Virus record (IMG/VR): IMGVR_UViG_3300030419_001728
Span: 1 to 20,149 of that record
Length of the DNA: 20,149 nucleotides
Strand: one strand, 5' to 3'
Source: a virus
Part shown: positions 2,103 to 20,116 of the stretch, in pieces
Layout: every line of letters starts with the position of its first letter
Numbering within the stretch: the first letter of the stretch is position 1
The notes under the pieces: generated by a model
Told to the model about the DNA's origin: nothing
Database searches by the model: none
The model's input: only the letters and a program-made list of their open reading frames with translations
Made by a program: the position numbers and the translations under genes

Positions 2103-2108
2103 AGTTAA

Positions 2109-3659
2109 TTAGAACTGCAATATAACTTTAATATCTTCTTTTTGATTAGAAGAGCGAGTAATGGCTGGTCGATTATCAACATATATCATATTTCCAGAGT
2201 ATGGTTTAACCTCTGGGTTTGAAATACCGTTAGTAAATGTCTGACCAAGGTAATATGTTTTATTATTTATTGAGGTTGAAACACCACTAAAGTTAGTACT
2301 AATCGATAAATTAGAACTTCCACCAACAACCGTGAAACTACCACCTGAAGCAATATCGGCGGTAAAACGATTCATCTTATATCCATAAATTGGAGAGGTA
2401 GTAGCAATACCCACAGTCGTAAATCCGGCCATGGTTCTATCTTGCCAATACTTCAAAACACCTGTAGTTTGGTCATAATTGATAACCTTACCTATAGCAG
2501 TTACACCAGTTCCTGTTGTTTGAGTAACTATGGAATCGTCAGTAAAAGTTACAGAACTATATCCTGTACCAGTCAAACGAACTGCATAAGTTGCACTTGC
2601 TTTATCTAAAGATAGAATTGAAGTAGAACCATATGCTTTAGGGTTACAAATAACACCAATCCTAGCAATTTGATTAGATGTTACAAAATCTGGGTTTTCT
2701 GTATCATTTTCAATTCTTGAATAAAGTAATACGTTAGTTGCTCCCAACTCTCTATAGATATTGGAACCATGACCACCTTGAGGTGGAATGACTACATCAA
2801 GTTGAGGCCAAGTATCAGGTGCAGGAAGTCCTCCAGCAACCAAATCAACAGTACCATAAGTGTAGTTAGATCCCTCATTCGAGATGGTTACGCTACCAAT
2901 CTTTTGATCAGCATTAACTACAACAGTACACTCTGCTCCAGAACCATCACCTTTAATAGGAACTCTAGTATAGGTTCTATTAGCAGTACCTAATCCAACT
3001 CCTCTATTCTGAATAACAACTACTTTAAGACCACCATCAACTGCATTATCTCTAACAGATGCATTATCAGTACTAGATGACCAATCCTTAGGAACAGGCA
3101 TATACTCTGTAGAATCAAACTTAATCAATTCTGCAGGTTTAATAGTATAAAGATATTTCCAAATATACCCATCACCACTAGTTCCTGCTGCTTTAGGTTC
3201 TAAATCAGTAAAAGTTGGTTCGTCTAGAGAAGGTTTTCCTTCAAGGTTTTCTGGATCTGTACCATTCTGCAGACAAATATAAACCCTATAATCACTATTA
3301 ACTACAAAATAATTTGCAGAATATAAAGATGCTCCTTGAGCATGTTTTGGTTTATTAGTAATACTATAATCAGATCTATAATAATCGTAGGTAGTACCAG
3401 AAGCCCATGTATTTTTTCTTACAACCTGCTTTACATCACTATCTGTGATTTTCTTTAGCGCAATAATAGTGTCCCAATATTCGTTCTCAGACTTAAAATT
3501 ATCGACAGGTGCAGGGGGATCACTATCCCAATCGGATTGAATCTCTGTAGGATTAGGTAAACCCACAAAAGTATAGTAAGAATTGGTTGAGGTAGAAACA
3601 CCCGCAACGAAATTCTTCGCATTCAGTATTCGAATCTGATCAGTTATGATTGCGGCCAT
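2109..3659 (-). CDS. 8: Baseplate wedge subunit gp8
   Basis: This is the counterpart of T4 gp8, the dimeric protein that joins gp7 and gp10 in the outer baseplate wedge. The 516 residues align with T4 gp8 at several landmarks. YYTFVGLP (28-35) matches the early strand. GDGYIWKYLY (162-171) followed by EYMPVP (185-190) matches T4 GDGYVWEYLF and EYIVVP. RIGVICNPKAY (about 332-342) matches T4 ISIITNPLEA. The C-terminal GNMIYVDNRPAITR with final VILQF matches T4 GEMIYMENRPPIIM and ILFTF. T4 gp8 has 334 residues. The extra length here lies mainly at about 230-280, a G-x-G-type beta repeat also found in the giant neighbour, and about 355-480. A late-promoter-like box lies 22 nt upstream of the ATG, and an AGG five bases before the ATG is a weak ribosome binding site. 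The function is firm; what the inserts do is unknown. Confidence 0.93.
   Translation of the reverse strand: MAAIITDQIRILNAKNFVAGVSTSTNSYYTFVGLPNPTEIQSDWDSDPPAPVDNFKSENEYWDTIIALKKITDSDVKQVVRKNTWASGTTYDYYRSDYSITNKPKHAQGASLYSANYFVVNSDYRVYICLQNGTDPENLEGKPSLDEPTFTDLEPKAAGTSGDGYIWKYLYTIKPAELIKFDSTEYMPVPKDWSSSTDNASVRDNAVDGGLKVVVIQNRGVGLGTANRTYTRVPIKGDGSGAECTVVVNADQKIGSVTISNEGSNYTYGTVDLVAGGLPAPDTWPQLDVVIPPQGGHGSNIYRELGATNVLLYSRIENDTENPDFVTSNQIARIGVICNPKAYGSTSILSLDKASATYAVRLTGTGYSSVTFTDDSIVTQTTGTGVTAIGKVINYDQTTGVLKYWQDRTMAGFTTVGIATTSPIYGYKMNRFTADIASGGSFTVVGGSSNLSISTNFSGVSTSINNKTYYLGQTFTNGISNPEVKPYSGNMIYVDNRPAITRSSNQKEDIKVILQF
2830..2972 (-). repeat. G-x-G / beta repeat inserted in gp8
   Basis: Residues about 230-277 of gp8 (from RVPIKGDGSGAECTVV to YGTVDLVAGG) have the same pattern as the repeats of the giant upstream protein: a G-x-G-(A/T) turn, a beta strand, then IGSVTISNEGSNY. 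T4 gp8 has no such segment as I recall it, so this looks like an insertion into the gp8 fold. The limits are approximate. Confidence 0.65.
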
Positions 3660-3681
3660 TGTAACCTATAGTTTTTTTACT

Positions 3682-3689
3682 TATTTATG
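3682..3689 (-). promoter_or_regulatory. T4-like late promoter box for gp8
   Basis: Read on the minus strand the box is CATAAATA, one base off the T4 late consensus TATAAATA recognised by the phage sigma factor gp55. It lies exactly 22 nt upstream of the gp8 ATG. The TAA stop of the giant gene (3685-3687) is contained in the box. The box in front of gp25 has the same spacing, and the two share the ten bases ATAAATAAGT. Transcription would start only about a dozen bases before the ATG, giving a very short leader. Confidence 0.7.
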
Positions 3690-6600
3690 TGTTATAATTT
3701 GTGATCTTCAATGGTTTGACCCTTTGGACTAAAGGACCAGTCGCAATTCCTGGAAGACCTTCACTAGCATTAACGGTAAAGGATTGTGATTTTGCTCTAG
3801 AAGAAAGAACAGCCTTACCCCAACTATATTCACCGTAGATATTACTGTTTCCTATACCAGATATTCCTTCAGTGCTACTAACACTTACGGTTACTCTAGT
3901 AACAGTAGTATGTCCAAATCCTAATGTTCCAAATCCAATTGCTGATGTATTAACTCCAACAGCAGCGGCAACTCTGTATACATTATCTAAGAAGATAGTT
4001 CCTACACCACAAACACTGTTATCAGACTGTAATGAGGTTAATCCAAATCCAGAATTACCTACATTTGAATTACGAACAATAAAGTAATCACCAACTTCTA
4101 TTCCACTTGTAGTTATACCACTAGTAGAACCCTGAGTAATATCAGAATCTCTCAACCAAGAATCTAAAGGAATAGTTAAATCGAATGTAATACCTGTTGA
4201 AGCAACACCGACAGATGTGAATCCTATTCCACTAATAATACCAAAATCACCATAATATGTATCTACAGAATTACTCTCTCGATAATCAACAGGAGGTCCA
4301 ACTAGAACCAAAGGTGGGTTAGTTCCTGTATATCCAATTCCAGATCTAATACCAACCGTTATAGCAGATACTGAACCACCAGAAATAGTAGCTGTTGCTT
4401 CTGCACGAGCAGTTGTTCCCATACCAACAGGATTCTGAATACTTACACTTGGAGCACTTGCATATCCCCTACCACCAGTATTACCTGTACCAGATATAGT
4501 AACAGATTCAATTGTTCCTGCAGCAGAAACTACAGCGGTTGCAGCAGCAGCAATTACTGCTTTATTATTCAAAATTTCAATATCCTTCTGGAAATCAGTT
4601 GAAACATCATTCTCATTCTTAGGATTAAAGTATGGTCTGCAGTTATCCATGTAAACAACTGTTGTACCCACACCAACTGTTTGGATTAGATATGCAGCAG
4701 GATAAAGATTCGCCTTATACATTATACGATCTTTCGCAACTATCTTACCGCCAACATATTTGTCTTCCATTTGTCTAGACCAATCGATTGGTCTAGCCTC
4801 AGTGGTATCTTCATAAATCCCTTGCTCATCATAAGCATTAGTATCAACAGAGTTAGCAGAGTTGATCTTAGAAACTGTACGTGGAAGTTCTTGCATCCAA
4901 CTCTTCTGACCCAAATCAGTGTTATATCCAAGTGTTAGATCATCACCAACTTTAACAGTTTCAATAACATCTACATCTACAACATCAGCACCACCAGTTC
5001 CTCTATAGAAGATAAACTTCATAGTATCACCTGACTTAGGTGCTTCAGTGAAACTTATATTACTACCCCCAGTAAAGTCATAAGATTTTCCAGGAATCTG
5101 TAAGATATCATTGATAAAGATGAGTAAACAATCTTGAATTGTTACCGTAGATCCAGGTTTTGCTTGGATGGATACTGGACTACCAGATAATTCAATTGGG
5201 AATGTCTTTCTTGCACCATTGAATAGATTTGAGAAATCATCAAGAACTTGAAGTTGTCCAACAGACCAGGCATTAAATTGATCATCATGAACTTCCTCAA
5301 CTGTCATCTTAAATTCAGTATCAGGAACAAAATTGGTAAATGTAGGAATACCAAGAGCACCTGTTATTTGTGGTGTAATTATATGATTAGCACCATATCC
5401 ATATCCAACATTGGTTAGAGTAAAGTCAATTACAGTAGATCCTTGACCAACAACAATATCAGCAGTTGCTTGAGCACCACCTGTTCCTGGAGAGTCAGCA
5501 CTGTATACAAGAGGAATATCAGCATATCCCAAAGGTGAATCGAATACTACCTTCATTTGCTGATTAACTTTACCACCTCTGTTATAGATGTGATGTCTAC
5601 TAGAGAGACCTACATTAACTTCAAATGTAGTATCACTAAGAACGTTCTCAACAGTTAAACCTGGTTCATCAAGATCGGTATTTCTAGGTGCATAGATACA
5701 TGCTTGTACAGTTCCTCCAGAAACATAATTTGTAGGTACTGTAGAAGTTCCAACATAGACTGAGAAGTTTCTAGCACTACCTACACCAGCCACCTGCATA
5801 CCATCATATCCAGGATCACCTTTTCTTGGATATCTGTGCTGAGTTGCATTACTATCCTTAGAACATGTAAATCTTAAACCTTCTTGCTTTAACTTAACGC
5901 TATTCTCAGTTGTTAATGTATGAGCCTTCATTAAGGTCAACTTCATATCACCAGTTGTCTGGTAGTATGTGGCAGCAGTGACAGTATTAAATCCTAAGAC
6001 AGATGCACCAACATTTACTGTCATTGTAGTAGATGTTACTGCAGTAATAGCAGTTTGAATTCCAGCAATAGGATCACTAGCACGAGGATATGCATGATCA
6101 GTACCGTACTGATCCATTTCACAAGCAAATGCAATAGTACTCGTACCAATACCTACAGTGTCATTAGTTCCAAGACCATGTGCATCAGCAAAGGTCATTA
6201 CTAAATCACCTGTAGCACCATTGTAAGTAGCATAGTATGGAGTATAATTGGTACTACCTGCAGAAGTAACAGCATTCTTCTTCGCCCATCTAAATGCGTG
6301 AGAATAGTTTGCTCCAGTAATAACTGTACTTGCAGCAGCACCTACGAATGTATGTGTATATTGATCCTTCTCAGCAGATGTAGTTACATTTAGGGTGATT
6401 GTACCATCATTGTATGTTAGACCTCCTGTAGTGGCACTGACAAAGGTATGAGCACTTGTATTAGTAGATGATGATGTAGGTAGCGTAGTAATACCCAAAA
6501 CATTGATTACAAATGTATCTGTAGTTACGCTTGTAATTCCAATCCACTGACCATGAATAGGATCAGTAGGTCTTGGATAAGAATGATTTGTAGCATTACC

Positions 6601-9600
6601 ATCCTTAGCACAAGTAAATGTTAAGGAGTTATCAGCAAGTTTAATCTTATCTAGATTAGAGAATCCATGACCAGCCACTGTAACAGTAGTAATACCAGTA
6701 GTAGGTGTATAATCAGCATTAGTGACTGTATATGGCGTACCATCGCTCTTAATGCCCACTGCGGTGTCATATACCCTATCTCTGTTTCTTGGGTAGATGT
6801 GGTTGACTGTGGCTCCTAATCCGCAGGTCATTGCAAGACCAGTCAATACAACTGTACTCTTCTGAGTTCCTGAAGCAGATAACCCGTGATCATATAAAGT
6901 CGTAACAGTCATAATACCAGAACTGCTATCATAATCTGCAGTGGCAATTCCTACAGCAGTAGAGTATCCACAAGTAAATGCAATACCAGAAAGAATAATA
7001 TCAGATCCTCTACTTAATCCATGATCAGTAGCAGTAGTAACAGTAGTTAAACCTGTGGTATTACCATAAGAAACCATCTGAATGTCTCTAGGTTTATAGA
7101 AACATTGTGGATTTGTAATACTAACGCTTGTTACTTGTCCATTTGATACAGCAGCAACACCAACACTAGTGATACCCGCTGCACCCATACTTTCTGTTTG
7201 AATACCAACGGTAACAGTTTGAATACCAGCTCTATAACCAGATCCAGAAGTTCCAATACCTATAGATGCAATAGTACCAGCAACGGATACAGTTACAGTA
7301 CCACCAGCAGCAACAAGTGGTTGATAACCAAATCCCTTACTTGATCCAATTGAAACAATTAATCCACCAACAGGAATAGTTGCAGTATTAGGATCAGAAG
7401 CAACTGTAGCAATTCCACCCGTAAATCTTAGAGTAGAAATTCCACTTGCTTCAGTCATAGTATAATCATTAGAATTACCAGGACCCTGGAATATTGAATT
7501 AATTAAAACAATACCATTATTGCTAGCAATACCAGAAACATTTGCTCCATCTACCTTCAAAGAGAAGTCTTTCTGCTGACCAGTAAAGTCTTGAGAAATG
7601 TCGTCATACTGATAGTTAAGTTTATAGGTTTCCTCTGTCCCATCAGTTACTCCAGATCGCATAAACGATCTACCGTGGAAACTAGAAGAAGTAGTAATAC
7701 CTGTCCAATCTCGATCATCTGGAGGATTAGTTACACTTCCAACAGGATTCTTTCCTGGAGGAGCCTCCATGAAGTTAATGTAACTATCAAGGATATCATA
7801 GTTTCCTCTAATCTTAGTAACCGTATCTCCAGTAGAATGACCAGCAATAGTTGATCCTAACCATCCACGCTGAACTTTAATAGCATTAGTTGATCCAATA
7901 CCTACAGAAAGTATCTTCATAACTTCGTAAGTAGTGGCACTACCAACTCTTACATAATCAGCACCAAAGATTGAAGTAATTCCCGTAAAGTAAACTATAT
8001 CGACACCAAGTGCTGCATCTCTGTCTAAAGTTGTTGAAACTGATGTATCTGCAATTGGAGATTGAATCATATTATCAATTCCAACCAGAACCTTAGTATT
8101 CTGATTCTTAGAAGTTAAACTATGAGATGTACCAACACCAACCGATGTTAGATCTAAAGGAACTGCTATTTGCTTCAGTGCATCTTCAGCAGACCTTGCT
8201 AATTGAACTTTATTTTCACCTTTCTTAATTACATATACAGATGATGGAATATAACTAACCGTTCCAACACCAGAGAATTCTGTCGCGGCAATACCTATTG
8301 TGTCTCCTGTAGTACCAACTCCAGCAGTTGTTTTGACAGAATATGTAACATTCTCACCAGTAACCCAGAAGTGATTTGGAATGAGGATACTATTATTAGT
8401 AAGATCAACTACACTACTATCAGATCCATCAAAACTCCTCCTAAAGATTTCATTAGTGTTATGCTGTAAATTAAACCTCTTCTTAACAGCAGTTTCAGTT
8501 CCTTCATAAAGAGCAAAATCATTACCTATCTGAACATTACCCAAATCTTTCTTAGTTTCTCCACCAACTTCTCTATAAGCAGTAGTAGGTAAGAGAGTTC
8601 CATTTTCTTCTGCTCTTAATCCTACCATAAAGGTTGTAACAGAAACTGCTATTCCAGCATGAGGAACAAAGGTAATTTCAGTATTATCATCACCAGCTCT
8701 ATTACCACTAATAGTACCTAATCCAGCATTTGTTGCACCAACAACTACATTACCATACTCAGTTAATAATACTTGTGAATCATCAGCATAATCGTCAATT
8801 ATAATAACTTCTGAAATTTCATAGTTATCATTCAATACATCAGCAACCTGAACAACACAGTAAGCAGCATCATAATCATTATGGTAACTTGCAATACCAA
8901 CCGCACTTGGAGAAGAACTAGAAGTAATACCTGTACTCTTAGCAGTCATTGCAGAGTAAGAGAAATCATAAGTACCAATTCCCTGATATCCCTCTGTAGC
9001 AATACCTATAGCAACAGCATTAACCCATGCTGTCGTATAACCAGCATCTGGAGTATAATCAACAACAAGTGATTCACCAGACATGTAAGGCCAATAAGTT
9101 CCTATATTTCCTGTAGAGGAATAAGAATCAAGAGAATGTATAGTTAATTGACCATATTCTTGCCATCCAACATTAGTACCATCATGTATAACAGTTAATT
9201 CATCATGCTCAACACTTCCATCACTAGCTTCAACACTTACCCATATCTTCGCTGATCTATGTCCTGGTGTAGTTGTTCCAATACCTGCTAATGTAAAGAC
9301 TGTTCCTGCGTTTCCGCCAGCGATTTCAACCACTGTAGACGCAATACTTACCAAAGACCCATTAAGACCCGTAGAGGGGTCTGCAGGAGCACCTGGGAGT
9401 TCTGTATTACCAATGGAAACTCCAGTTTGATCAGTTGTTACTCCAAGAACATTCTTATCAATATTAAAGGAGAATGGTATAACATTATAATTGTTTAACT
9501 TATACTTGTTAGGATAGAAACGAAGTACACTTTCATCTCCATCAATTACATAATCAAAGTCTCCTAAATCAAGAACACTATAAATGTCACCATACTGGTT

Positions 9601-12600
9601 GATCATTGAATAACCACGGCCAGTATCATGTACTGCATCAACCCTTGTTATTTGCCTCTCACCAGTATATGTCCTATCTTGAATATAGATGATAAATGAT
9701 TGCGTTCTACCATCAGCAGTTCTTTGTCTCCAAACATCAGTATATGGAGTAGATCGTGGATTATTATTAAATTGACCACTAATATCATCCATCACTAAGA
9801 CTCTATTTCCACTGGATTCAGAATAATCAGTGATAAGTCGTGACTGGAAATTAATCTCATCAGAATATGCTCTCTGATGTCCTTGAAGATAATTCTCAGT
9901 TGCTAAGTCATAGTTCTTAACTGTATTGATATCTTCCACTCCATGAAGATCTAATACTCTTGTAACATGAGTGGTTATACCAATTTGTAAAGGAGTTGCA
10001 GAATTTAAATCAGATTCAACCTGAAGATCACTAAATTTCTTAAATCCAGCGGTATGATTTAAAGATCCAACAACATTTTTCCATTCATCATATTGAACCT
10101 TAGATTTAATTGAATATGAGAAACTCTGATAGTAATCATTATCAGAAATTTTCTGTAATTCGTTATTCAGGAATCCTGTTAGATATTCCCATCCATTATC
10201 AACAATAGAAACATCATTTAAATCATACTTAGATTCAAACGTAATTCTATCTTTAATAAGACCTTTTACTCCAGTATCATCATCTGTTATAATCGTATCA
10301 ACTTCAAATTCTGTAGCACCTTCTACTGTTAAGTATTTTGCAGAATCATTCCAATCAAAGACAGTACCAGTGGTATTTCCATCATTTACTTCATCACCTT
10401 TATTGAATGCTCTAGATTCAAGTGTTGAATCAAAATGTGGGAACCATTTAGATGGAACCAATGAACCAGAAGAATTAATAGTATCAAAATTACCAGGCCA
10501 CTCAACTTCGCTGAGATATCCTTCCATACTATATTTGACAGTACCTATACCACCATAATTTGGTGTTACCTCAACAATCTTGAATCTAGCATATTCGTAT
10601 CCAGAAGAATTATATCCCTTCGCAGTTGATCCAACACCAACACTAACATTCTCCACCAAAACCATATCATTGATGGCAAATGGGAATGGATTCTTATAAT
10701 CACCACCTGCAGTCTTAACACTATTAAAGGACTCTTTTAAAGTTACTGTTACTGTAGGAATATCAGTATAAAGTGTTCTTGTAGCACTAGACACTCCACA
10801 AGTATCACTCTTGTTTAATTCAAAATTGGTCGCTCTTACACCATTAGGACCACCAATGGGAAGAATAGTAGGAGGAGTATTAGTAAGACTATAAGTATTC
10901 TCTAAAATATCAACTTTCTTATTCTCAGCATCATATCTCAGATCTACATCTTTAATTTGTTTCTTCGTATTTCCATCAATAACTACTAAACTAGGAGGAG
11001 TGTTATATCCTCGTCCAAATGAAGTAATTCCAATTGATTTAAATCCACTTAAAGGTTCAACCTTTAATACTTGTGGGAATAGTGTTGATGGCTCTAGAGT
11101 TAAATCTGCAGGATAATCAAATCCAATATCTTCAATAGTTGCTCTTACAACCTTTCCTATTGTCTTACTAGAAGACTCTAATACAGCACCTGTACCAGTT
11201 GAAGTAGTAACTGTTGTAATTCCAGGAAGAGCAGTATAACCACTACCCTTATCAAACAATTTAACTTCAGCAATACGACCATATCCTTCTGATGCATTTG
11301 TTGTATAATCTAAATGCGCTGGTGAAGGAGTATAGGAAGCACTTTCTGGACGTTCTTTTAAGTTATATGTAAAGGTATTATCAGATTGCTTAAGAATGCT
11401 AAATTCACCATTATAAATGCTTTCTCTAAATGAGATTTGATTATTAAAATCTACAGTAGTATCAACAACACATTCTTTGTTTATTGTGGTATTAGCATTA
11501 GTCTCTAAAGGAACTAACTTATAGTAAAGTAATGAAGGACTGTCTGCATCAACTTTTAATACAGCCTTAGCATCTCCTGTTACACCAACAGTACCAGTTC
11601 TTGTTACATTAAATGTATCATCTACGAGACCATTAGTTTCGTAATTATTAGTGAAATTAGAATCGTGATAAAATTCAAATCTAAATCCAGCATAATCTGT
11701 ACTACTTTGAGTATATGATAAAGAAGAATCAGAAAGATCAAATGTTACATTGGAATTCTTATAAACAGTCAAAGGTGGGTTAACTGGAGACAGAGTTCCT
11801 GCAACGAAGGTTGAAATTCCAACAAATACTGGAATAGGTCGTGTAGTTTGATATTTGTCAGCTGTTAACTTAATTGTATTACTATCAATTACATAAACAT
11901 AATAGATGGTATTATTAGGTAAATCAATTCCATCTCCAGTACAAGTATGAACTACTTCTTGTCCATTTTGGAATCCATGATCATTAATTGTAATAGAATC
12001 TGGAATACCAGATGTAGCAGTAGTAGTTGTAACACCAGACGTAGCAAAGTCTAAAGGATTTACTAATACCCTTCTATGCTTCTTATTATACTTAATAGTA
12101 ACAGTAGTGGAGATACCAGGATCTACATCAACAAATACTTTATCATCATTACTCAATCCATGAGTTGAAGAAGTAGAGACTGTTACTACATTCTTCTCTA
12201 AACTACCCGTTACAACATCATTATATACTGTTTTGAAACTATGATAGGATCCATCACCAACACTCTTAAAGAAGAGTAATCCTTGATGAGAAGTTGTATT
12301 TGCAACTCCAGCAAAAGATCCAGTTGAACCTAATCCAATAGCAACAGTAGATAATCCAATTAAATCATTACTTACTTTTGCAACCCAAAGACTAGAATAA
12401 TCTGATAAAGCGAAACTATCTCCGGTTGCTACTTGATTTGCACCTGTAAGAATTCCAATACTATCACCAGTATTAACCTGATATGTAACCTTCTCACCTG
12501 TTAATAATCCATGATTAGGTAGATAGATTGTTTGAGTAGGAGACCAAATCTCAGTTATTCCTGCTCCTGGATTAGAGAAACTAATAGTAGTTCCAATTCC

Positions 12601-15600
12601 AGCTTGGGTACCAGCAGCACCAACAGGGTATGCAGTTCCTATTGCAACAGACTCAACAGGATTGAAATAAATTTCCTTATTAACGTTACGAGTAAATGAA
12701 GTTGTACTTCCTACATTAATAGTAAATCTCCTAGGAAGTTCAGTCAAAGTTGTTGTTATGGTATGAGATACTCCCGTTGATCCATCAATAGAACGTAAAA
12801 CTCTAACTCTAGAATTAAATCTATCTACATTTAAAATTCTTACTACTTCTGTTCCTGATGTATAAAGATCATTTTCTTTTAAAGCAGGATATCTTAAATC
12901 ACCTGCTACAGGGAAATAAGTAACTAAACCTGTAACACCATCTGTACCAATTGCTGCAGATACGATTAATTTATTCGTACTAATTCCAATATTGAAAGAT
13001 CCTTGAAGATCTGAAGCAGTTGTTGTTATTCCAGCAATAGAAACAAGACTATTATCTTGAAGACCAATCTCTGTTGAATATATTCCAATAATAGTTTCAG
13101 CAGATGCGTTTCTATTTTTAACTGTAGGATAAAATTCAATTCCAGTTAGAGAAGTAGTAGTTACACTTATAGTTCCTATTCCAGGTCCTGCTACTTTAGA
13201 AACTTTTGCTGAAGCCTTATAATCAGTTGTTATTTCCTTACCAAAAACGAGAGGATCACCAACTTTATATCCAGTACCACCTGTAAGAATACCAATTGCA
13301 TCTATAGATCCTTTTTTAGCAAAGTTAATAATAGAATCCTGAGCAATATATTCAGAAGGTTCATTTACATATCCATAACCACTATATTTCTTATCTAAAG
13401 CATATGGGAAGGTATTTCTAATCCAATTTGTCTTATTTAAATTAATAGCATCCTGATTAGATCCCTGCTGTAAATTAAAAGTATTTGGTTGTGCTTTAAA
13501 GGACTTACCAATCAAATAAGGGAAAGTTGGTTTTTTATAATCCTTAAATGGACCAGTTGCAGAAGTAGTATCTTCAAATGTTGCAAAATATGCATACACA
13601 CCTTTTGGATATTCTGGAGTAACGCAGAATCTTCCATTATTCTCATCTAGTTGTGTTTCGTCATTTGAAGGAACATATTCAAAATCTTCTACAAAATATC
13701 CTGCAGGGAATTCACTAATTGGAGGTCTATCCGTTATCTGTGATGCTTTTTCTACATATCCAGATTTTAACTGAACAACTGATCCACCAGTCTTTGTTGT
13801 ATACCCATATGGGCCATAAATGGGATATCCATCATATGCCCATCCAATAATTGGAGAATGATCACTATTATCGACTTCTATGTTATTGACTTGAGTTAAA
13901 TCCTTTTTACCATACAATGTATTACCATCTTGGTCGGTAGCATAAACAATTTTTCTTAAACTTCTAGGAGCATATACATATGAACACTGAAGTCCAAATT
14001 TCCTGTTAAGAGGAGTTGAAAGGATAACATCATCATCCGTTATAATAGCTTCACTCTTTCTAAACTGATTAACTTGCCAAGTTTTTAAATTAGATCTAAA
14101 TTTAACGTTCTTTCCAGCAGGATCTACCTGAATAAACGTAGTAGAGACTCCATATCCAATTCCACCATGATTAACCCTTACAGAGACAATAGTACCAGCA
14201 GAATCCATCTCTGGAACCAAATCTGCACCAGTACCAATTCCACTGATTGCTAGAGTAGGTGGTGCGTTATATTGAGTACCACCAGCACTAACACTAACCT
14301 CTACAATTTTTCCATTAGAAATTACAGGAGTTAGTACAGCATCTTGTCCAGAATAAACAGAAATATCAGGATCTCTTTCAAGATTGACAATATTTGTTAC
14401 ACCATACCCAGCACCCGTATTTGTAAGATTAACTGATGTAATTTCACCTCTTACAATAGGTTGTACAGTTGCTTCAAACGTATCTCCCGATATTGAAGAT
14501 ATTCCCACATCTCCAACAACTTTTACTTCAATTGCAGGATAATTAAATGTATGAGTACCATATCCAACAGTACTAAAGTCTGCAAACTGCTTAGTATCAA
14601 GATAAAAACTACTAACAGTTGTTCCTACACCAACTGCTGCTAACTGGAAGGAATTATCATCAATAACTGATGCATAGTAATCTAATGAAGTAGAAAGTCC
14701 AGTTATTAGAGTAGTAGCACCCGATCCAACATTAGCAAGAGTATTAGAATAACGAATTACCTCTCCAGTTTGATAACCATGATTAGAAATATTAATAACA
14801 TTAAGAGCTGTGTCTATTCCGACTGATTGACATGTTCTTTCTTTATTTTCATAATCAGATCCAGAATTTAATATTACAATCGAACTTACAATTGCTTTTC
14901 CGTTAACCGACTTCAATGCATGTATTCCATTACCATAATCAGTGAATGTTATAGTAGAAATACCAGATATTGCATCCTCATAGGTTTTATGTAACTTTAC
15001 AGTGTAATCATCATTAATAGAAACATGATATATCGAATCTGTACCCAAACCTACTAAGGGTCTCTCTCCAAAAGTCTTATATACAACTCTTTCACCAACC
15101 CTAAACTTATGATATGTTGAAAATCCAATAGTTGACTGATTACTAGACTGTCCAATAATAACAGTACCAATTCCTGCAGTAATAGATCCAATTCCAGTAG
15201 AATCAAAGGAAACTTGATGAGGAACAGAAACTAATTTAGCCTCTGCAACTGCACCTGTTCCATTTCCTCCTGTAATCTTAACCAATGGAGTTTCAAGGTA
15301 ATCAAAACCCGATTTTAATAATCTAATCTCTTTAAAATCACCTTTAACTGAACAAGAACCTGTTGCACCTGAACCAACAGCATCAGTAACAGAAAGAAGT
15401 GGTGGATTGATTACATCATAGTCTCTACCACCTTTTACTACATTAATTGACTCAATAGAACCAGAATAGACATAATCTCTTGCTTTATAATTTAAAACTT
15501 CTACACCATCGATCAAAATTCCAGTATAACCCATATCTGTTTCATAATCTTTTCCATCAGGAACAGGTGGAGCTACTTCTCTTAAAAGTTTTTGTGATTC

Positions 15601-17760
15601 TATGTTTTTTTGATAATTGTCATATTTTTCTACCCAGTTTGGACCCAAAGTAATGGTATCTTTCTGATCATCAATGGTTACTGCAGAAAAAATGTTATTA
15701 TAGAGGTTTGACCTACTTTTTGCGAATTTTACGTTGTTAGCATCAATACGTTTAACATAATAAACACCTTCTCCATAATCTCCATCAGGTCCTTGCTCAA
15801 AAAGTGAAGTTTCTACCCATTCTTGAACATAATCTACTCCACCAATAGATGTAATCTTAGTTTTCCATTCTGGAGTGTAAAAAATTGCATCGCCTGTATA
15901 AAAGTTGTGATCAACGCCATTAGTGATCTGTATTTCCTCTTGGCCTTTAGTATATAACCCGTCAAAACTGAATTTTTGCTTACTAGGGTCAATATAGATG
16001 TCTCCAGCAGATGGAAGCGATGAAGAAGCAACTAGAGCAGTCTCAGAGTCAATATAAGTGTTCTGAACATTAGCAGTATTGACATTTATGGTAGGATGAA
16101 CCCTAGAATCTGATTTTGCAATAAGTCTAGTTACTTTAACTACCTTTGTAATATCTCCTAAACCAGTTCCTCTAAAAATACAAGTATTTTCATCAAAAAT
16201 ATCAGTTATTAAGAACTGTTTTCCTGTTGCTGGTTCAAAATCCGAAGTTATTGGAGATCCCCATGTAACAGTATCATTTATTGTCTCATGAGTCGTAAAT
16301 TTATCACCAATTCTAAAGATATTCTTATCTTTTGTAACTAACTTATAAATGTTGTTTATAGAATCAATAAGACTAATGGATTCAACAATATAAGACTGAG
16401 CTGTATTAAATATCCAATTATTAAATTTAAAATTATTGGTTATTTTTCCTAAATTCTTTGTTTTAACCTTTGCACCAGATTGTTGATAATAAGTTTCTGT
16501 AGGAATGACCAAATCACTCAAAACAGACCTTATTTTTACTTTTATTCCATCAGTTGTTCCTGATCCAGCAGAATAAGAGAACGTATTTTGATCAATACTA
16601 GTATTATCAGTAATTGTATCAGAAATTCCTACCGTACTTATTCCTAAAAACTGATTTATCGTTTTTTCAGTGTATGTACAGATTCCAGAGGTTCCATCTG
16701 CATTAAGAAACGACAAAGTTCCCGAATTTGGGAATCCTATCGTTGAATCTACATCAATATAAGTCTGTCCAATACTAATTGCACCAATTATTTTGGTTTT
16801 AGCATTAGGAGTAAATTTACCATATATTAAATCTGTAGATCCATCATTTTGACTATAAGCACCATCAATACTAACTTTATAATAACTTCTAGTATTAACA
16901 CCAACAGCAACTTTTTCTACTCTGGAAACTGGAGCATAAGCCTTTGAAATATTCTCAAAAGGATCTTGAAAAAGGGTCTGATTTACTAAATCTTCAGGAT
17001 CCCCTTCTACTGGTTCTACAACAAGATCTCTAGTTAACTTGAAATTAGCGTCTGAAGGTGAAATTACATAATCTCTAGGTCTAATAACGCTTACATTTTC
17101 ACCATAAAGTGCTCCAAAGAGGATTTTGAAGGATTCATCAGTTCCTCTGGTGGAATAGAAGTCTTTAGATTGTCTTATAAATTGAGGTTCGTTTAATTTT
17201 GGATCTAAATCAGTCTGAAAACCATATAAAAACTGATTTTTAACTTTTGTTAAGAATTTCTCAAGGAATAAAACATTTAAATTCTCAACAACACTCTCTT
17301 TTTCGTGCTCAGTTGCAATAGAAGTTGAAAATACTAGGTTTTCTGGGTTAGATGTGTTCCTATAAGAGGTAATTCCACTAAAACCTCTAGTACAATCTAC
17401 AAAAGTTACACTTGTTTTACTGGAATAAGTGATAATTTCATCATCAATCTTAATTAATCCATTAGTTTCAGGAAATCCCGTTGTATCTTTAACTGCAATT
17501 GTTGTTTGAAACCTATCAAGAACAGTATATGATCCTGCACTATCAGTTTCTGCTAGAGTAGTAGATTTAACAATATTACCACAATCACTTAATTTTATAT
17601 AACTGTCAATATTTTCAATTAAATCAAGAGGTCCACCTTTATATTCTTGTCCTTTATAATACTGAGATAAAAATTCACCGACAAGAGGAAACTCAGCCCG
17701 CACATATGCTGGCAACTGGCTTTTTACAATCTGATTAAATTGAACTTTCTTTTCTGCCAT
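3685..17760 (-). CDS. Giant modular baseplate/tail structural protein with YHYH domain, at the gene 7 position
   Basis: One uninterrupted frame encodes 4,691 residues, about 70% of the window. It starts 4 bp after gp6 and ends inside the late promoter of gp8. It lies between gp6 and gp8, where T4 has gene 7 (wedge initiator, 1,032 residues). That equivalence is positional; I see no sequence match to T4 gp7. Visible parts, with approximate residues: a conserved non-repetitive head (1-240, with FIRQSKDFYSTRGTDESFK); beta modules with TTGFP or IGFP turns (87-112, 332-352); H-G-(L/F/Y) modules (614, 882, 987, 1744, 1856, 1921, 3122); G-x-G-Y/P-P repeats (769-847, 1077-1214, 1487-1537, 2161-2261, 3464-3561, 4081-4139, 4414-4491); a YHYH domain (1227-1414); a DYYQSFSYSIKS module (about 2540-2584); paired IHDG/IIDD modules (2839-3052); two NDILQ-type modules (3394-3434, 4177-4259); and Cys/His/YPR repeats (3561-4024). 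No membrane segment or coiled coil is seen. A virion role is near certain; the exact role is unknown. Confidence 0.9.
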   Translation of the reverse strand: MAEKKVQFNQIVKSQLPAYVRAEFPLVGEFLSQYYKGQEYKGGPLDLIENIDSYIKLSDCGNIVKSTTLAETDSAGSYTVLDRFQTTIAVKDTTGFPETNGLIKIDDEIITYSSKTSVTFVDCTRGFSGITSYRNTSNPENLVFSTSIATEHEKESVVENLNVLFLEKFLTKVKNQFLYGFQTDLDPKLNEPQFIRQSKDFYSTRGTDESFKILFGALYGENVSVIRPRDYVISPSDANFKLTRDLVVEPVEGDPEDLVNQTLFQDPFENISKAYAPVSRVEKVAVGVNTRSYYKVSIDGAYSQNDGSTDLIYGKFTPNAKTKIIGAISIGQTYIDVDSTIGFPNSGTLSFLNADGTSGICTYTEKTINQFLGISTVGISDTITDNTSIDQNTFSYSAGSGTTDGIKVKIRSVLSDLVIPTETYYQQSGAKVKTKNLGKITNNFKFNNWIFNTAQSYIVESISLIDSINNIYKLVTKDKNIFRIGDKFTTHETINDTVTWGSPITSDFEPATGKQFLITDIFDENTCIFRGTGLGDITKVVKVTRLIAKSDSRVHPTINVNTANVQNTYIDSETALVASSSLPSAGDIYIDPSKQKFSFDGLYTKGQEEIQITNGVDHNFYTGDAIFYTPEWKTKITSIGGVDYVQEWVETSLFEQGPDGDYGEGVYYVKRIDANNVKFAKSRSNLYNNIFSAVTIDDQKDTITLGPNWVEKYDNYQKNIESQKLLREVAPPVPDGKDYETDMGYTGILIDGVEVLNYKARDYVYSGSIESINVVKGGRDYDVINPPLLSVTDAVGSGATGSCSVKGDFKEIRLLKSGFDYLETPLVKITGGNGTGAVAEAKLVSVPHQVSFDSTGIGSITAGIGTVIIGQSSNQSTIGFSTYHKFRVGERVVYKTFGERPLVGLGTDSIYHVSINDDYTVKLHKTYEDAISGISTITFTDYGNGIHALKSVNGKAIVSSIVILNSGSDYENKERTCQSVGIDTALNVINISNHGYQTGEVIRYSNTLANVGSGATTLITGLSTSLDYYASVIDDNSFQLAAVGVGTTVSSFYLDTKQFADFSTVGYGTHTFNYPAIEVKVVGDVGISSISGDTFEATVQPIVRGEITSVNLTNTGAGYGVTNIVNLERDPDISVYSGQDAVLTPVISNGKIVEVSVSAGGTQYNAPPTLAISGIGTGADLVPEMDSAGTIVSVRVNHGGIGYGVSTTFIQVDPAGKNVKFRSNLKTWQVNQFRKSEAIITDDDVILSTPLNRKFGLQCSYVYAPRSLRKIVYATDQDGNTLYGKKDLTQVNNIEVDNSDHSPIIGWAYDGYPIYGPYGYTTKTGGSVVQLKSGYVEKASQITDRPPISEFPAGYFVEDFEYVPSNDETQLDENNGRFCVTPEYPKGVYAYFATFEDTTSATGPFKDYKKPTFPYLIGKSFKAQPNTFNLQQGSNQDAINLNKTNWIRNTFPYALDKKYSGYGYVNEPSEYIAQDSIINFAKKGSIDAIGILTGGTGYKVGDPLVFGKEITTDYKASAKVSKVAGPGIGTISVTTTSLTGIEFYPTVKNRNASAETIIGIYSTEIGLQDNSLVSIAGITTTASDLQGSFNIGISTNKLIVSAAIGTDGVTGLVTYFPVAGDLRYPALKENDLYTSGTEVVRILNVDRFNSRVRVLRSIDGSTGVSHTITTTLTELPRRFTINVGSTTSFTRNVNKEIYFNPVESVAIGTAYPVGAAGTQAGIGTTISFSNPGAGITEIWSPTQTIYLPNHGLLTGEKVTYQVNTGDSIGILTGANQVATGDSFALSDYSSLWVAKVSNDLIGLSTVAIGLGSTGSFAGVANTTSHQGLLFFKSVGDGSYHSFKTVYNDVVTGSLEKNVVTVSTSSTHGLSNDDKVFVDVDPGISTTVTIKYNKKHRRVLVNPLDFATSGVTTTTATSGIPDSITINDHGFQNGQEVVHTCTGDGIDLPNNTIYYVYVIDSNTIKLTADKYQTTRPIPVFVGISTFVAGTLSPVNPPLTVYKNSNVTFDLSDSSLSYTQSSTDYAGFRFEFYHDSNFTNNYETNGLVDDTFNVTRTGTVGVTGDAKAVLKVDADSPSLLYYKLVPLETNANTTINKECVVDTTVDFNNQISFRESIYNGEFSILKQSDNTFTYNLKERPESASYTPSPAHLDYTTNASEGYGRIAEVKLFDKGSGYTALPGITTVTTSTGTGAVLESSSKTIGKVVRATIEDIGFDYPADLTLEPSTLFPQVLKVEPLSGFKSIGITSFGRGYNTPPSLVVIDGNTKKQIKDVDLRYDAENKKVDILENTYSLTNTPPTILPIGGPNGVRATNFELNKSDTCGVSSATRTLYTDIPTVTVTLKESFNSVKTAGGDYKNPFPFAINDMVLVENVSVGVGSTAKGYNSSGYEYARFKIVEVTPNYGGIGTVKYSMEGYLSEVEWPGNFDTINSSGSLVPSKWFPHFDSTLESRAFNKGDEVNDGNTTGTVFDWNDSAKYLTVEGATEFEVDTIITDDDTGVKGLIKDRITFESKYDLNDVSIVDNGWEYLTGFLNNELQKISDNDYYQSFSYSIKSKVQYDEWKNVVGSLNHTAGFKKFSDLQVESDLNSATPLQIGITTHVTRVLDLHGVEDINTVKNYDLATENYLQGHQRAYSDEINFQSRLITDYSESSGNRVLVMDDISGQFNNNPRSTPYTDVWRQRTADGRTQSFIIYIQDRTYTGERQITRVDAVHDTGRGYSMINQYGDIYSVLDLGDFDYVIDGDESVLRFYPNKYKLNNYNVIPFSFNIDKNVLGVTTDQTGVSIGNTELPGAPADPSTGLNGSLVSIASTVVEIAGGNAGTVFTLAGIGTTTPGHRSAKIWVSVEASDGSVEHDELTVIHDGTNVGWQEYGQLTIHSLDSYSSTGNIGTYWPYMSGESLVVDYTPDAGYTTAWVNAVAIGIATEGYQGIGTYDFSYSAMTAKSTGITSSSSPSAVGIASYHNDYDAAYCVVQVADVLNDNYEISEVIIIDDYADDSQVLLTEYGNVVVGATNAGLGTISGNRAGDDNTEITFVPHAGIAVSVTTFMVGLRAEENGTLLPTTAYREVGGETKKDLGNVQIGNDFALYEGTETAVKKRFNLQHNTNEIFRRSFDGSDSSVVDLTNNSILIPNHFWVTGENVTYSVKTTAGVGTTGDTIGIAATEFSGVGTVSYIPSSVYVIKKGENKVQLARSAEDALKQIAVPLDLTSVGVGTSHSLTSKNQNTKVLVGIDNMIQSPIADTSVSTTLDRDAALGVDIVYFTGITSIFGADYVRVGSATTYEVMKILSVGIGSTNAIKVQRGWLGSTIAGHSTGDTVTKIRGNYDILDSYINFMEAPPGKNPVGSVTNPPDDRDWTGITTSSSFHGRSFMRSGVTDGTEETYKLNYQYDDISQDFTGQQKDFSLKVDGANVSGIASNNGIVLINSIFQGPGNSNDYTMTEASGISTLRFTGGIATVASDPNTATIPVGGLIVSIGSSKGFGYQPLVAAGGTVTVSVAGTIASIGIGTSGSGYRAGIQTVTVGIQTESMGAAGITSVGVAAVSNGQVTSVSITNPQCFYKPRDIQMVSYGNTTGLTTVTTATDHGLSRGSDIILSGIAFTCGYSTAVGIATADYDSSSGIMTVTTLYDHGLSASGTQKSTVVLTGLAMTCGLGATVNHIYPRNRDRVYDTAVGIKSDGTPYTVTNADYTPTTGITTVTVAGHGFSNLDKIKLADNSLTFTCAKDGNATNHSYPRPTDPIHGQWIGITSVTTDTFVINVLGITTLPTSSSTNTSAHTFVSATTGGLTYNDGTITLNVTTSAEKDQYTHTFVGAAASTVITGANYSHAFRWAKKNAVTSAGSTNYTPYYATYNGATGDLVMTFADAHGLGTNDTVGIGTSTIAFACEMDQYGTDHAYPRASDPIAGIQTAITAVTSTTMTVNVGASVLGFNTVTAATYYQTTGDMKLTLMKAHTLTTENSVKLKQEGLRFTCSKDSNATQHRYPRKGDPGYDGMQVAGVGSARNFSVYVGTSTVPTNYVSGGTVQACIYAPRNTDLDEPGLTVENVLSDTTFEVNVGLSSRHHIYNRGGKVNQQMKVVFDSPLGYADIPLVYSADSPGTGGAQATADIVVGQGSTVIDFTLTNVGYGYGANHIITPQITGALGIPTFTNFVPDTEFKMTVEEVHDDQFNAWSVGQLQVLDDFSNLFNGARKTFPIELSGSPVSIQAKPGSTVTIQDCLLIFINDILQIPGKSYDFTGGSNISFTEAPKSGDTMKFIFYRGTGGADVVDVDVIETVKVGDDLTLGYNTDLGQKSWMQELPRTVSKINSANSVDTNAYDEQGIYEDTTEARPIDWSRQMEDKYVGGKIVAKDRIMYKANLYPAAYLIQTVGVGTTVVYMDNCRPYFNPKNENDVSTDFQKDIEILNNKAVIAAAATAVVSAAGTIESVTISGTGNTGGRGYASAPSVSIQNPVGMGTTARAEATATISGGSVSAITVGIRSGIGYTGTNPPLVLVGPPVDYRESNSVDTYYGDFGIISGIGFTSVGVASTGITFDLTIPLDSWLRDSDITQGSTSGITTSGIEVGDYFIVRNSNVGNSGFGLTSLQSDNSVCGVGTIFLDNVYRVAAAVGVNTSAIGFGTLGFGHTTVTRVTVSVSSTEGISGIGNSNIYGEYSWGKAVLSSRAKSQSFTVNASEGLPGIATGPLVQRVKPLKITNYNT
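4290..4521 (-). repeat. G-x-G-Y / P-P beta repeat pair, C-terminal
   Basis: Residues about 4414-4491 of the giant protein hold two consecutive units: SVTISGTGNTGGRGYASAP, then, after an Ala/Thr-rich strand, ITVGIRSGIGYTGTNPP. Each unit is a beta strand, a G-x-G-Y turn, a P-P or A-P step and a second strand. This is a recurrent unit of marine phage structural proteins and is the last clear copy before the C-terminal 190 residues. Confidence 0.7.
4985..5232 (-). repeat. NDILQ-type module, second copy
   Basis: Residues about 4177-4259 run from FNGARKTFPIELSG through LLIFINDILQIPGKSYDF and ISFTEAPKSGDT. The pattern F-(T/N)-G-x-x-K-x-F, a central (V/I)-x-I-N-x-I-x-Q-x-P-G and a closing strand is shared with residues about 3391-3440 of the same protein. 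The two copies bracket the Cys/His/YPR repeats. Confidence 0.65.
5345..5520 (-). repeat. G-x-G-Y beta repeat near 4081-4139
   Basis: Residues about 4081-4139 of the giant protein contain a GTGGAQATADIVV strand followed by IDFTLTNVGYGYGANHI, the usual strand / G-x-G-Y order of these repeats. It separates the Cys/His/YPR block from the second NDILQ-type module. Confidence 0.6.
5689..7080 (-). repeat. Five degenerate Cys/His/YPR repeat modules
   Basis: Residues 3561-4024 of the giant protein hold five related modules. Each begins with a TG(I/L/D)-type strand and an (H)G(L/F)-x(n)-D step and leads to (F/M)-(T/A)-C. In modules 2-5 this is followed by a His and then x-Y-P-R. The cysteines are at 3597, 3646, 3717, 3880 and 3966. 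The histidines are at 3654, 3726, 3889 and 3975, so spacing is C-x7-H once and C-x8-H three times. Module 1 is truncated and lacks the His-YPR half. Between modules 3 and 4 lie about 85 extra residues containing three HTF/HAF units (HTFVSATTG, HTFVGAAAS, HAFRWAKKN). Similar repeats occur in other marine phage tail proteins; their function is not known to me. Confidence 0.8.
7085..7372 (-). repeat. G-x-G-Y beta repeat cluster near 3464-3561
   Basis: Residues about 3464-3561 contain GGLIVSIGSSKGFGYQPLVA, then SIGIGTSGSGYRAGIQTVTVG, then VTSVSITNPQCFYKPRDI. These are three strand / G-x-G-Y type units, the last degenerate. The cluster directly precedes the first Cys module. Confidence 0.65.
7455..7592 (-). 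repeat. NDILQ-type module, first copy
   Basis: Residues about 3391-3436 read FTGQQKDFSLKVDGANVSG followed by IVLINSIFQGPGNSNDY. The pattern matches the later copy near 4177-4259, including the aromatic-G-x-x-K-x-F opening and the I-N-x-I-x-Q-x-P-G core. Confidence 0.65.
8605..9246 (-). repeat. Tandem IHDG/IIDD beta modules
   Basis: Two successive modules lie at about residues 2839-2921 and 2964-3052. The first contains ELTVIHDGTNVGWQEYGQL, the second SEVIIIDDYADDSQVLLTEY. Each continues with a G-(N/T)-I-G or G-L-G-T-I-S turn, a central strand, and a D-Y-T-P or F-V-P-H-A-G step before a hydrophobic strand. This looks like an old tandem duplication of a domain seen in tail proteins of marine phages. 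Confidence 0.65.
10980..11282 (-). repeat. G-x-G-Y / P-P repeat cluster near 2161-2261
   Basis: Residues about 2161-2261 hold three units: IAEVKLFDKGSGYTALPGI; VVRATIEDIGFDYPADL; and SIGITSFGRGYNTPPSLVVI. The first and last have the full G-x-G-Y plus P step; the middle one has G-F-D-Y instead. Confidence 0.7.
13519..14083 (-). other. YHYH domain inside the giant protein
   Basis: Residues about 1227-1414 carry the hallmark of the YHYH family (Pfam YHYH): HSPIIGWAYDGYPIYGPYGY at 1301-1320. It is preceded by the strand FGLQCSYVYAPRS and followed by LDENNGRFCVTPEYPKGVYAYF. The position that gives the family its name reads Y-A-Y-F here (1389-1392), so the second motif His is absent while His1301 is kept. 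The function of the family is not established. The domain is flanked on the N-terminal side by G-x-G-Y repeats and sits in the first third of the chain. Confidence 0.85.
14120..14532 (-). repeat. G-x-G-Y / P-P repeat cluster before the YHYH domain
   Basis: Residues about 1077-1214 hold three consecutive units: ITSVNLTNTGAGYGVTNI; IVEVSVSAGGTQYNAPPTL with GIGTGADLVPEM; and IVSVRVNHGGIGYGVSTTF. This is the most regular run of the repeat in the protein. Each unit is about 40-45 residues, has a strand of pattern I-x-x-V-x-V and ends in an aromatic after a double-glycine turn. Confidence 0.75.
15220..15457 (-). repeat. First G-x-G-Y / P-P repeat pair
   Basis: Residues about 769-847 contain IESINVVKGGRDYDVINPPL with GSGATGSCSV, then IRLLKSGFDYLETPLVKITG with GTGAVAEAKL. 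These are the first copies from the N-terminus and mark the change from the head region to the repeat-built body of the giant protein. Confidence 0.7.
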
Positions 17761-17764
17761 TTGT

Positions 17765-19714
17765 TTATCTTACGATGCTGCCAGAGGTATAACTTGGAGT
17801 AACGATATAATTTGATCCAGATGGGTCAATACCTGAACTAATTTCATCAACAATCATCTCCACATTACTACTATCTAGTTGCAAATAAAGATCCTGTAAT
17901 CCAATAACGTCATTAGACTCTGGAATTGCTGATATTTCCATAATCTGAACTCCATCTTTCGTCTTTCCAGAGACGATATTAATGGGATCTAAGGTAATAC
18001 GACCTGTTTTATAGTTAATTATTCCTATATTTCTCCTTTGAATCGTTGGTGTATTACTTCCAGACGAGTCTAGAGAGAATAAACTGATCGTTCCTGTCTT
18101 TTTATCAGAATTAGGAACATCATATAGGTAAACATCCTCATTTATATCCAATACTTTGAAAGCACTGGATCGAATATTGTACCCATTCATTGAATTAATA
18201 TGCATTTCATTACCAAAATCAATAGCATACTCAGCAAATGTATCAGTTGCTAATCTTAAATCCCTACGTATTTCAACAGTAGTGATAGTAGAAGTAACAG
18301 CCTCATGACTTTGATCAATAACTTTTAAGAATTGACTGTATTTAAACCTAGCACCATACTTATTAAGTTCAGCTGAATCTGCATATTTGTTAATATTGTC
18401 CTGAACAATGGTAGAAACAAAGGATGCAGAAGGTGCTAGATTGGAATTATAGTAAACTTTGTTGTTTGTTTCTATAAACAAGTACTTCAAATCTAAAATT
18501 TCAGGTATTATACCTGCAACAGAGTACTTTTTAAGGTCTCTTTTGATATTTTCCTTAATAGAACCAGGTACAAAGTCTCCTGTACGTGGTTTTATACTAA
18601 TAAAAACCTTTCCATATTGAGGAGGAACTAATTCTTCACCTCCATATACAGAAATTGACTCTGCTTCAGGGTAAATTTTGTTTGGAATTAGGATTTCATA
18701 GTCATTTGCAGTCAAAGCACGGTTCTGAGTGGCATATATTTGAGGTGCATACTTCTTAATAGAGTCAACACTCTCAATTGCTTCTCCACCGCTTGAAGAA
18801 CTATAACTACTAATCAGTGAAATTCCACTAGTAACATTATGTTCAATAGAATTTCTGGTATATGTTAGTCTTCCAGAGAAAACAAGACGACTGACACCGT
18901 TAGCAGAATCACCATTTGTAACAATATAAGAAACTTCAATGACATTACCATCCTCTAAAGCTTTACCAAAGATACCATCACCAAAAATTAACTCATATTG
19001 CTCACTTTCAACTTCCTGAATGAAGTAAACATGGGAAGTTCCATCAATTGTAGTACCAGTTTTCTCTGCAAATAGGTCATCTTGACGAACATAATCTACA
19101 GATGTGGTAGATCCAGAGTATCCCTTTACTTTAACATTCAAAGTATCAAGGTCAATTCCGGTATTTGGTAGGATATACTTCTGAAATGGGTTTCTAGATG
19201 AATAAGTAAATGTCTGAGTTAGTAAAGTACCCTCATGTACAGTTAAATTATCGAATCTAGCTTCTTTATTTCCATCAACACCATTAGTAACTGAGACAGT
19301 TTTGTCATCAGCAATACAAAAGACGAAAGATTGCCCACCAAATTGGTTTCCTGTACTCGCAACAGGTCCTTTTTTAAGGGTTATAGTTGCAGGAGTAGGT
19401 GAAACACCATCTAAATCAACAACAAAATCGATTGGAACTCTAGAACACTTCTTAGACCTTGGTAGATATCCTATATTACGTGCCAGTGCCACCACATTCT
19501 CCCTTAAGGTGGCAGAATCTATGAATACCTCATTAGATATCATATTAGCATTATAAGACGATATATACGTGTTATACGCTAAGACATCAATAATAGTAGA
19601 TAGGTTAGATCCTTCAAAGTCATAATCCGTAAAATTGGAATTATTCTTTAAATAATCTTTGAGAGTGATTTTTATCTGATCAAAATCTAGATCAGTAAAG
19701 TTTAAAAGTGGCAT
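17765..19714 (-). CDS. 6: Baseplate wedge subunit gp6
   Basis: This is the counterpart of T4 gp6 (660 residues; 649 here). In T4, gp6 forms the ring that joins neighbouring baseplate wedges and carries the sheath-contraction signal. The N-terminal 100 residues show the conserved helical block: FTDYDFEGSNLSTIIDVLAYNTY (28-50), NEVFIDSATLRENVVALARNIGYLPRS (61-87). The middle has a Baseplate_J-like region with LTANDYEILIPNKIYPEA (about 331-348) and GKVFISIKPRTG (about 368-380). The C-terminal third contains RNIGIINYKTGRITLDP, also typical of gp6. The gene starts immediately after the gp25 stop with no intervening base and no clear Shine-Dalgarno, so translation is probably coupled to gp25. No repeat modules are inserted, unlike the next two genes. 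Near-normal length and full landmarks suggest an intact protein. Confidence 0.95.
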   Translation of the reverse strand: MPLLNFTDLDFDQIKITLKDYLKNNSNFTDYDFEGSNLSTIIDVLAYNTYISSYNANMISNEVFIDSATLRENVVALARNIGYLPRSKKCSRVPIDFVVDLDGVSPTPATITLKKGPVASTGNQFGGQSFVFCIADDKTVSVTNGVDGNKEARFDNLTVHEGTLLTQTFTYSSRNPFQKYILPNTGIDLDTLNVKVKGYSGSTTSVDYVRQDDLFAEKTGTTIDGTSHVYFIQEVESEQYELIFGDGIFGKALEDGNVIEVSYIVTNGDSANGVSRLVFSGRLTYTRNSIEHNVTSGISLISSYSSSSGGEAIESVDSIKKYAPQIYATQNRALTANDYEILIPNKIYPEAESISVYGGEELVPPQYGKVFISIKPRTGDFVPGSIKENIKRDLKKYSVAGIIPEILDLKYLFIETNNKVYYNSNLAPSASFVSTIVQDNINKYADSAELNKYGARFKYSQFLKVIDQSHEAVTSTITTVEIRRDLRLATDTFAEYAIDFGNEMHINSMNGYNIRSSAFKVLDINEDVYLYDVPNSDKKTGTISLFSLDSSGSNTPTIQRRNIGIINYKTGRITLDPINIVSGKTKDGVQIMEISAIPESNDVIGLQDLYLQLDSSNVEMIVDEISSGIDPSGSNYIVTPSYTSGSIVR

Positions 19715-20116
19715 TTATCGACTTGGCAATAATACGAATTCTAATTCCTGAGCAGGAACTTCTAATCCAACAATAATATAAGTGATTGTTGCATAAAATT
19801 GATTCCCGTCATAATCAGGAATGACACCTACATCCACCAATTCAACTCTAGGTTCATAATTTTTAATGGAATTTTCAATATCTTCCTTAATATTAAGAGC
19901 TGTAACCTCATCAACGTTCTCAAATAGAGTTCTAGTTACATCTGAACCGAAATCAGGATCAAAAAACTTTTCGCCACGGTTGGTAAATACTATATTTTGG
20001 ATAGAACGGGAGATTGCAGTCGAATTTTTTAGACCAATAAGGTCATTATTTAGAGGATTTGTCTTAAAAGATAGACTAAGATCCTTAAATTCTTGCTTTA
20101 CCCTTTCTACTGGCAT
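19715..20116 (-). CDS. 25: Baseplate wedge subunit gp25
   Basis: This is the counterpart of T4 gp25 (132 residues; 133 here), the small inner-wedge protein that, with gp6 and gp53, helps start polymerisation of the tail sheath. It belongs to the gp25/TssE family shared with type VI secretion and other contractile systems. Key marks are FTNRGEKFFDPDFGSDV (44-60) and the family's conserved E-P-R at 88-90 in NYEPRVEL. No signal peptide or membrane segment is present. A late-promoter-like box lies 22 nt upstream. There is no convincing Shine-Dalgarno in the short leader (CATACTTTTCA before the ATG). It is the first gene of the transcript gp25-gp6-giant protein. Confidence 0.96.
   Translation of the reverse strand: MPVERVKQEFKDLSLSFKTNPLNNDLIGLKNSTAISRSIQNIVFTNRGEKFFDPDFGSDVTRTLFENVDEVTALNIKEDIENSIKNYEPRVELVDVGVIPDYDGNQFYATITYIIVGLEVPAQELEFVLLPSR

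Follow-up and report, generated by a model that had tools for sequence, protein, structure and literature searches.

The baseplate wedge protein gp7 of phage T4 has 1,032 residues, close to the roughly 1,030 given in a preliminary description of the DNA analysed here, and is present in six copies per baseplate (PMC3004832). In T4, gp7 and gp10 act together early in the assembly of the wedge. The T4-like phages of marine cyanobacteria are abundant, and their baseplates have been described as differing from this scheme. The genes g10, g11, and g12 were listed among those absent from cyanomyoviruses (review PMC2984593), and in 2020 gp7 was reported to be absent from cyano- and pelagimyophages, with VrlC as its substitute (PMC7029224). 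Because T4's peripheral genes are missing, the outer cyanophage baseplate is unexplained. At the gene 7 position the marine T4-like cyanophages encode very long proteins, and the gene described below belongs to this known and catalogued kind of giant baseplate protein. What is new is the probable layout of the protein, in which the gp7 core is split.

A giant gene at the gene 7 position

The stretch analysed (the window) is the whole of one virus record of 20,149 bases, a 20 kb fragment of a phage genome. All its genes are on the minus strand in the order gp25 (19715..20116, 133 aa, PF04965), gp6 (17765..19714, 649 aa, PF21379 and phrog_219), the giant gene (3685..17760), gp8 (2109..3659, 516 aa, PF09215 and phrog_438), and a VrlC/DUF4815 structural protein (3..2102), of which at least 700 residues are present before the window end cuts it. 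Thus, gp25 and gp6 are found upstream and gp8 and VrlC/DUF4815 downstream of the giant gene, and its placement between gp6 and gp8 recurs in the relatives. A 14-kb open frame at this place had been described before, its strand not being given, and is borne out: on the minus strand 4,691 uninterrupted codons begin with ATG at 17760 and are closed by a stop at 3685, while the plus strand over 3685-17760 contains many stops. The encoded protein has about 503 kDa and a pI of 4.8.

Matches to the first 500 residues were found in 469 phage records, nearly all of them from marine Synechococcus and Prochlorococcus myoviruses and the remainder from a few Pelagibacter and Methylophilales phages. The matching records are frequently annotated as gp7 or baseplate wedge initiator. 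In the marine T4-like cyanophages the proteins at this position comprise 1,937 (S-CREM2), 3,274 (S-RIM44), 3,895 (S-SRM01), 4,067 (both SynMITS9220M01 and Bellamy), 4,156 (S-SM2), 4,446 (P-HM1), 5,195 (P-SSM2), and 6,378 residues (S-RIM2), so that 4,691 residues are mid-range and the exceptional size that had been suggested does not survive the two longer genes. In S-RIM2 (L099, 143-19279 and 20545-25686) the DFYSAKG segment of gp7 is shifted to residue 697, and two extra genes lie between gp7 and gp8, one of them with two further YHYH matches. The nearest relative, a protein of 5,001 residues, was pieced together from the overlapping loci L021 and L105 of a single IMG/VR contig and shares 72% identity across residues 1-3985. 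Comparison of the two genes over 3,478 codons gave a dN of 0.19 and a dS of 0.78 at 72.5% amino acid identity, and the giant gene is thus under purifying selection. Homologous frames are interrupted in two IMG/VR sequences, by a frameshift near 17625 in L009 and by an in-frame stop near 5045 in L049, which might suggest that the giant frame results from assembly or annotation errors. This reading is already refuted by the selection along the gene and by full-length collinear homologues in isolated and fully sequenced phages.

A probable gp7 core in two segments

The N-terminal 240 residues (17041..17760, minus strand), here called core A, consist of helices and the DFYSTRGTDESFKILFGALYGENV segment, which corresponds to about residues 733-757 of T4 gp7. 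An alignment of the N-termini of the relatives was compared by hhalign with a set of seven diverse T4-type gp7 proteins, and its positions 193-298 were aligned to T4 gp7 726-813 (96%, E 3e-9), where the conserved core segment of gp7 is located (T4 about 726-765). The score of 78.3 compares with at most 24.8 in 60 column shuffles. Against single proteins, T4 gp7 scored 63.4 and the T4 proteins gp53, gp5, gp6, gp8-gp13, and wac reached 18.5 at most. With hmmsearch the core A profile matched T4 gp7 727-758 (E 1.6e-9), and the match of T4 gp7 to PHROG 2885 falls exactly on the core A segment. The gp7-position protein of Sinorhizobium phage phiM7, which is matched by core A with an E of 1e-14, bridges to T4 gp7 643-830. 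A sequence search of the PDB with the first 500 residues returned chance matches only.

Core A is followed by a region resembling gp7 domain V (16525..17040, residues 241-412, minus strand). The predicted structure models are of low to medium confidence (pLDDT 63.6 for residues 1-440, and 58.7), and a Foldseek search with the N-terminal model found nothing below E 0.001; the gp7 chains emerged in a second look by VIA-align. There, residues 241-412 of the model were superposed on gp7 765-840 of 5iv5_BJ and 5hx2_A (both T4) and 9f4a_A0 (Klebsiella KP1) with Z scores of 6.9-7.4 over 74-75 residues, which is below Z 8. Domain V of T4 gp7 (766-861) spans the superposed stretch, and the superposition directly follows the sequence-matched segment in the correct order. 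Together, the core A match and the superposition on domain V support the equivalence to gp7 that the preliminary description had proposed.

Both regions carry a β-barrel insert. The one in core A (17323..17568, residues about 65-146, minus strand) was recognised by its self-similarity to residues 315-392, by strands in the model, and by its absence from phiM7 and Caulobacter phage Cr30, where the profile has a gap from 60 to 158. The second (residues 319-394, window 16579-16806) lies in the domain V-like region. The two barrels share about 31% identity, and the 319-394 barrel superposes on barrels of phage tail-tip proteins with Z scores of 8-10.

A second conserved segment, DNDYYQSFSYSIKS...WKNVVGSLNHTAGFKKF, is found at about residue 2540 and marks core B (9991..10233, residues about 2510-2590, minus strand). 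It is matched by phiM7 818-986 with an E of 4.5e-12. The match to T4 gp7 817-889 is weak (27.6%, score 36.2 versus a shuffle maximum of 23.9) and a wider core B profile did not improve it; in T4 gp7 the second core segment would be at about 862-890. All 11 related proteins scanned contain core B. Its position is nearly constant (2453-2539) in the close IMG/VR relatives, and in the cyanophages about 1,600-2,800 residues separate it from core A. The likely layout is that of a split core with part A at residues 1-412 and part B at about 2510-2590, an insertion of about 2,100 residues bearing a YHYH domain between them, and a C-terminal arm of about 2,100 residues behind. The homology to gp7, the order of these parts, the insertion, and the variation of the repeat cassette in the C-terminal arm are all results of computation.

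A different view would be that the protein is a tail fibre or adhesin that just happens to occupy the gene 7 position, and that VrlC has taken over the role of gp7, as the reported absence of gp7 from cyano- and pelagimyophages and its substitution by VrlC (PMC7029224) would have it. Part of the protein does match tail-fibre families, and the Pfam scan of the giant protein did not report the T4 gp7 domain models PF21427 (domain V), PF21456 (domain VI), and PF21428 (a helical domain), although helices are predicted at residues 8-54. However, the protein carries the gp7 core motif and a predicted domain V-like fold, and phiM7 encodes VrlC in addition to a clear gp7, so that VrlC is no substitute for gp7 there. 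We regard the fibre view as improbable. The gp7 core within the giant protein therefore contradicts the published statement of gp7 absence and corrects it.

A gp7 homologue elsewhere in the genome had been named beforehand as evidence against gp7 equivalence. The T4 gp7 family profile (phrog_964), for which T4 itself served as the positive control, matched seven of ten complete related genomes, once each and inside the gp7-position gene, and no second gp7-like gene was found elsewhere in the ten complete genomes of cyano- and alphaproteobacterial phages. In the control genome of Bacteroides ihuae the T4 gp7 and gp12 profiles both match, perhaps in a prophage or a contaminating phage contig.

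The core and the arms could also be parts of a polyprotein, from which post-translational cleavage would release them as separate proteins of the virion. Such a division would resemble the IMG/VR contig L083, where the gene is split into 507 residues with core A and the domain V region and a following part of at least 3,056 residues with the YHYH domain and core B. But the split in L083 could equally be an assembly error, and in every complete cyanophage gene read the frame is continuous, so that cleavage is, if anything, slightly less probable than the fibre view. The two frames of L083 are located at 6638-8161 (ending in a Ser/Gly-rich tail) and at 8188-17355 (beginning with a new ATG), and L067 (447 aa) may be split likewise.

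The two proposed arms and the repeat cassette

Arm 1 is inserted between cores A and B (10261..16524, residues about 413-2500, minus strand; boundaries approximate) and is covered by phrog_2885 398-2372. The YHYH domain mentioned in the preliminary description lies here indeed, at 13573..13875 (residues 1296-1396, minus strand), and matches PF14240 with an E of 2e-24 and 87.1 bits compared to the curated cut-off of 25, covering only positions 87-183 of the 193 of the model. It is present in the gp7 of all eight complete relatives. The histidines of the Y-H-Y-H motif have been proposed to bind metal (PMC7824862). In the giant protein the motif and its histidines are missing, the corresponding residues being YAYF, and all nine phage proteins have YAYF or YCYF. 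The idea that the loss of the histidines is specific to phages was dropped because Bacteroidota relatives have YCYF or YAYF as well, although the pattern used to find them was biased towards these residues. These Bacteroidota YHYH relatives (L119-L198), collected with the pattern biased in this way, perhaps represent a separate subfamily.

Arm 2 follows core B and extends to the C-terminus (3688..9990, residues about 2591-4691, minus strand). It is absent from S-CREM2, phiM7, and Cr30. Within it, modules with the motif HxYPR form a repeat cassette of 515 residues (5551..7095, residues 3556-4070, minus strand). The IMG/VR relatives B and C and SynMITS9220M01 are collinear to residue 3555 and resume at 4071, and the cassette must therefore have been cleanly inserted or lost. 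The giant protein contains four HxYPR motifs versus six in the 5,001-residue relative. Copies of the cassette are also present, at several sites per genome, in genes whose annotation is short tail fibre, tail protein, or structural protein. Most of the extra length had been thought to be built from repeated β modules. This holds only in part. Internal repeats do cover about 41% of the residues (E<=1e-3), compared to 0-12% in block-shuffled controls and 29% if the cassette region is left out, but the strong ones cluster at residues 3450-4070 and all others are weak.

Behind the cassette the C-terminal region is conserved (3688..5550, residues 4071-4691, minus strand; phrog_2885 3575-4177), and the last 500 residues match 93 phage records. 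A barrel in the model of these 500 residues (model residues 313-458; window 3688-5187) is similar to endosialidase stalk barrels and ribosomal L3 with Z scores of 5-6. As an assignment this was rejected, since ribosomal L3, aIF2-gamma, and the phage endosialidase stalk barrels, at Z 5-6.7, were inseparable.

The baseplate periphery and comparison with known systems

Presence in the virion, which the preliminary description had asked about, is indicated by a homologue. In purified virions of S-CREM2 the protein encoded at 77594-83407 was detected by 91 unique peptides at a coverage of 27% (PMC10665884, Table 3), and by sequence comparison this protein, gp122 with 1,937 residues and without arm 2, is a homologue of the giant protein. 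Considering all evidence, we give a probability of roughly 80% to the giant protein being a wedge protein of the gp7 family from a T4-like phage of marine cyanobacteria, with its core at the wedge and its arms in the periphery.

In agreement with the review (PMC2984593), profile searches for the gp10, gp11, and gp12 families found no full-length match in eight relatives, the gp11 search being one without a positive control. Partial matches to these families were obtained in P-SSM2 and S-RIM2 only. The gp10 profile matches T4, its positive control, and does not match phiM7 or Cr30.

The wedge position, copy number, extended arms, and host contact are our inference. As in T4 gp7, cores A and B would sit together with gp6, gp25, gp53, and gp8 at the wedge; each wedge would hold a single copy and each baseplate six. 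The insertion of about 2,100 residues with the YHYH domain would loop out between A and B, and the second arm, likewise about 2,100 residues long and with its cassette of fibre-type repeats, would leave the core after B. The arms may then, together with VrlC, build the peripheral and host-facing baseplate in place of T4 gp10, gp11, and gp12, either contacting the host themselves or serving as a scaffold for VrlC and the fibres. The preliminary description had suggested that fibre proteins are replaced as well, which is conceivable. More tentatively, and with the odds somewhat against it, the marine cyanophages might have a baseplate periphery of a different kind, in which a split-core gp7 provides each wedge with two arms, both about 2,000 residues long, these arms together with VrlC do the work of gp10, gp11, and gp12, and host contact is altered by swapping cassettes with fibre genes. 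What could so far only be called a huge structural protein thus becomes a testable layout of two arms on a split core, of which one arm is absent in S-CREM2 and the cassette is removable.

Compared with the known proteins, the closest in overall organisation are the Kyanoviridae gp7 (SynMITS9220M01, S-SM2, Bellamy, P-SSM2, P-HM1, and S-RIM2; PHROG 2885), which have the position, core A, the YHYH domain, core B, and the C-terminal arm in common with the giant protein. Among the relatives, SynMITS9220M01, S-SM2, and the IMG/VR proteins B and C run collinear with it for most of the length at 42-56% identity. Core A, the YHYH domain, and core B are shared by S-CREM2 gp122, which has no C-terminal arm and stops about 50 residues past the beginning of its core B motif. 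In phiM7 (1,006 aa) and Cr30 (767 aa) core A is also at the start, core B is near the end, and the middle is β-rich. However, this middle comprises just about 550-800 residues, the barrel insert in core A and the C-terminal arm are missing, and the YHYH motif was not found in the two gp7-position proteins. As in the window, the VrlC gene of phiM7 is located downstream of gp8. T4 gp7 (PDB 5IV5, 5HX2) shares the DFYSTKG segment, the position between gp6 and gp8, and probably the domain V-like region. In T4 the core is preceded by about 640 residues and little separates A from B, whereas the giant protein starts directly with the core. Its additions, like those of the cyanophages, are placed between the two core parts and behind core B.
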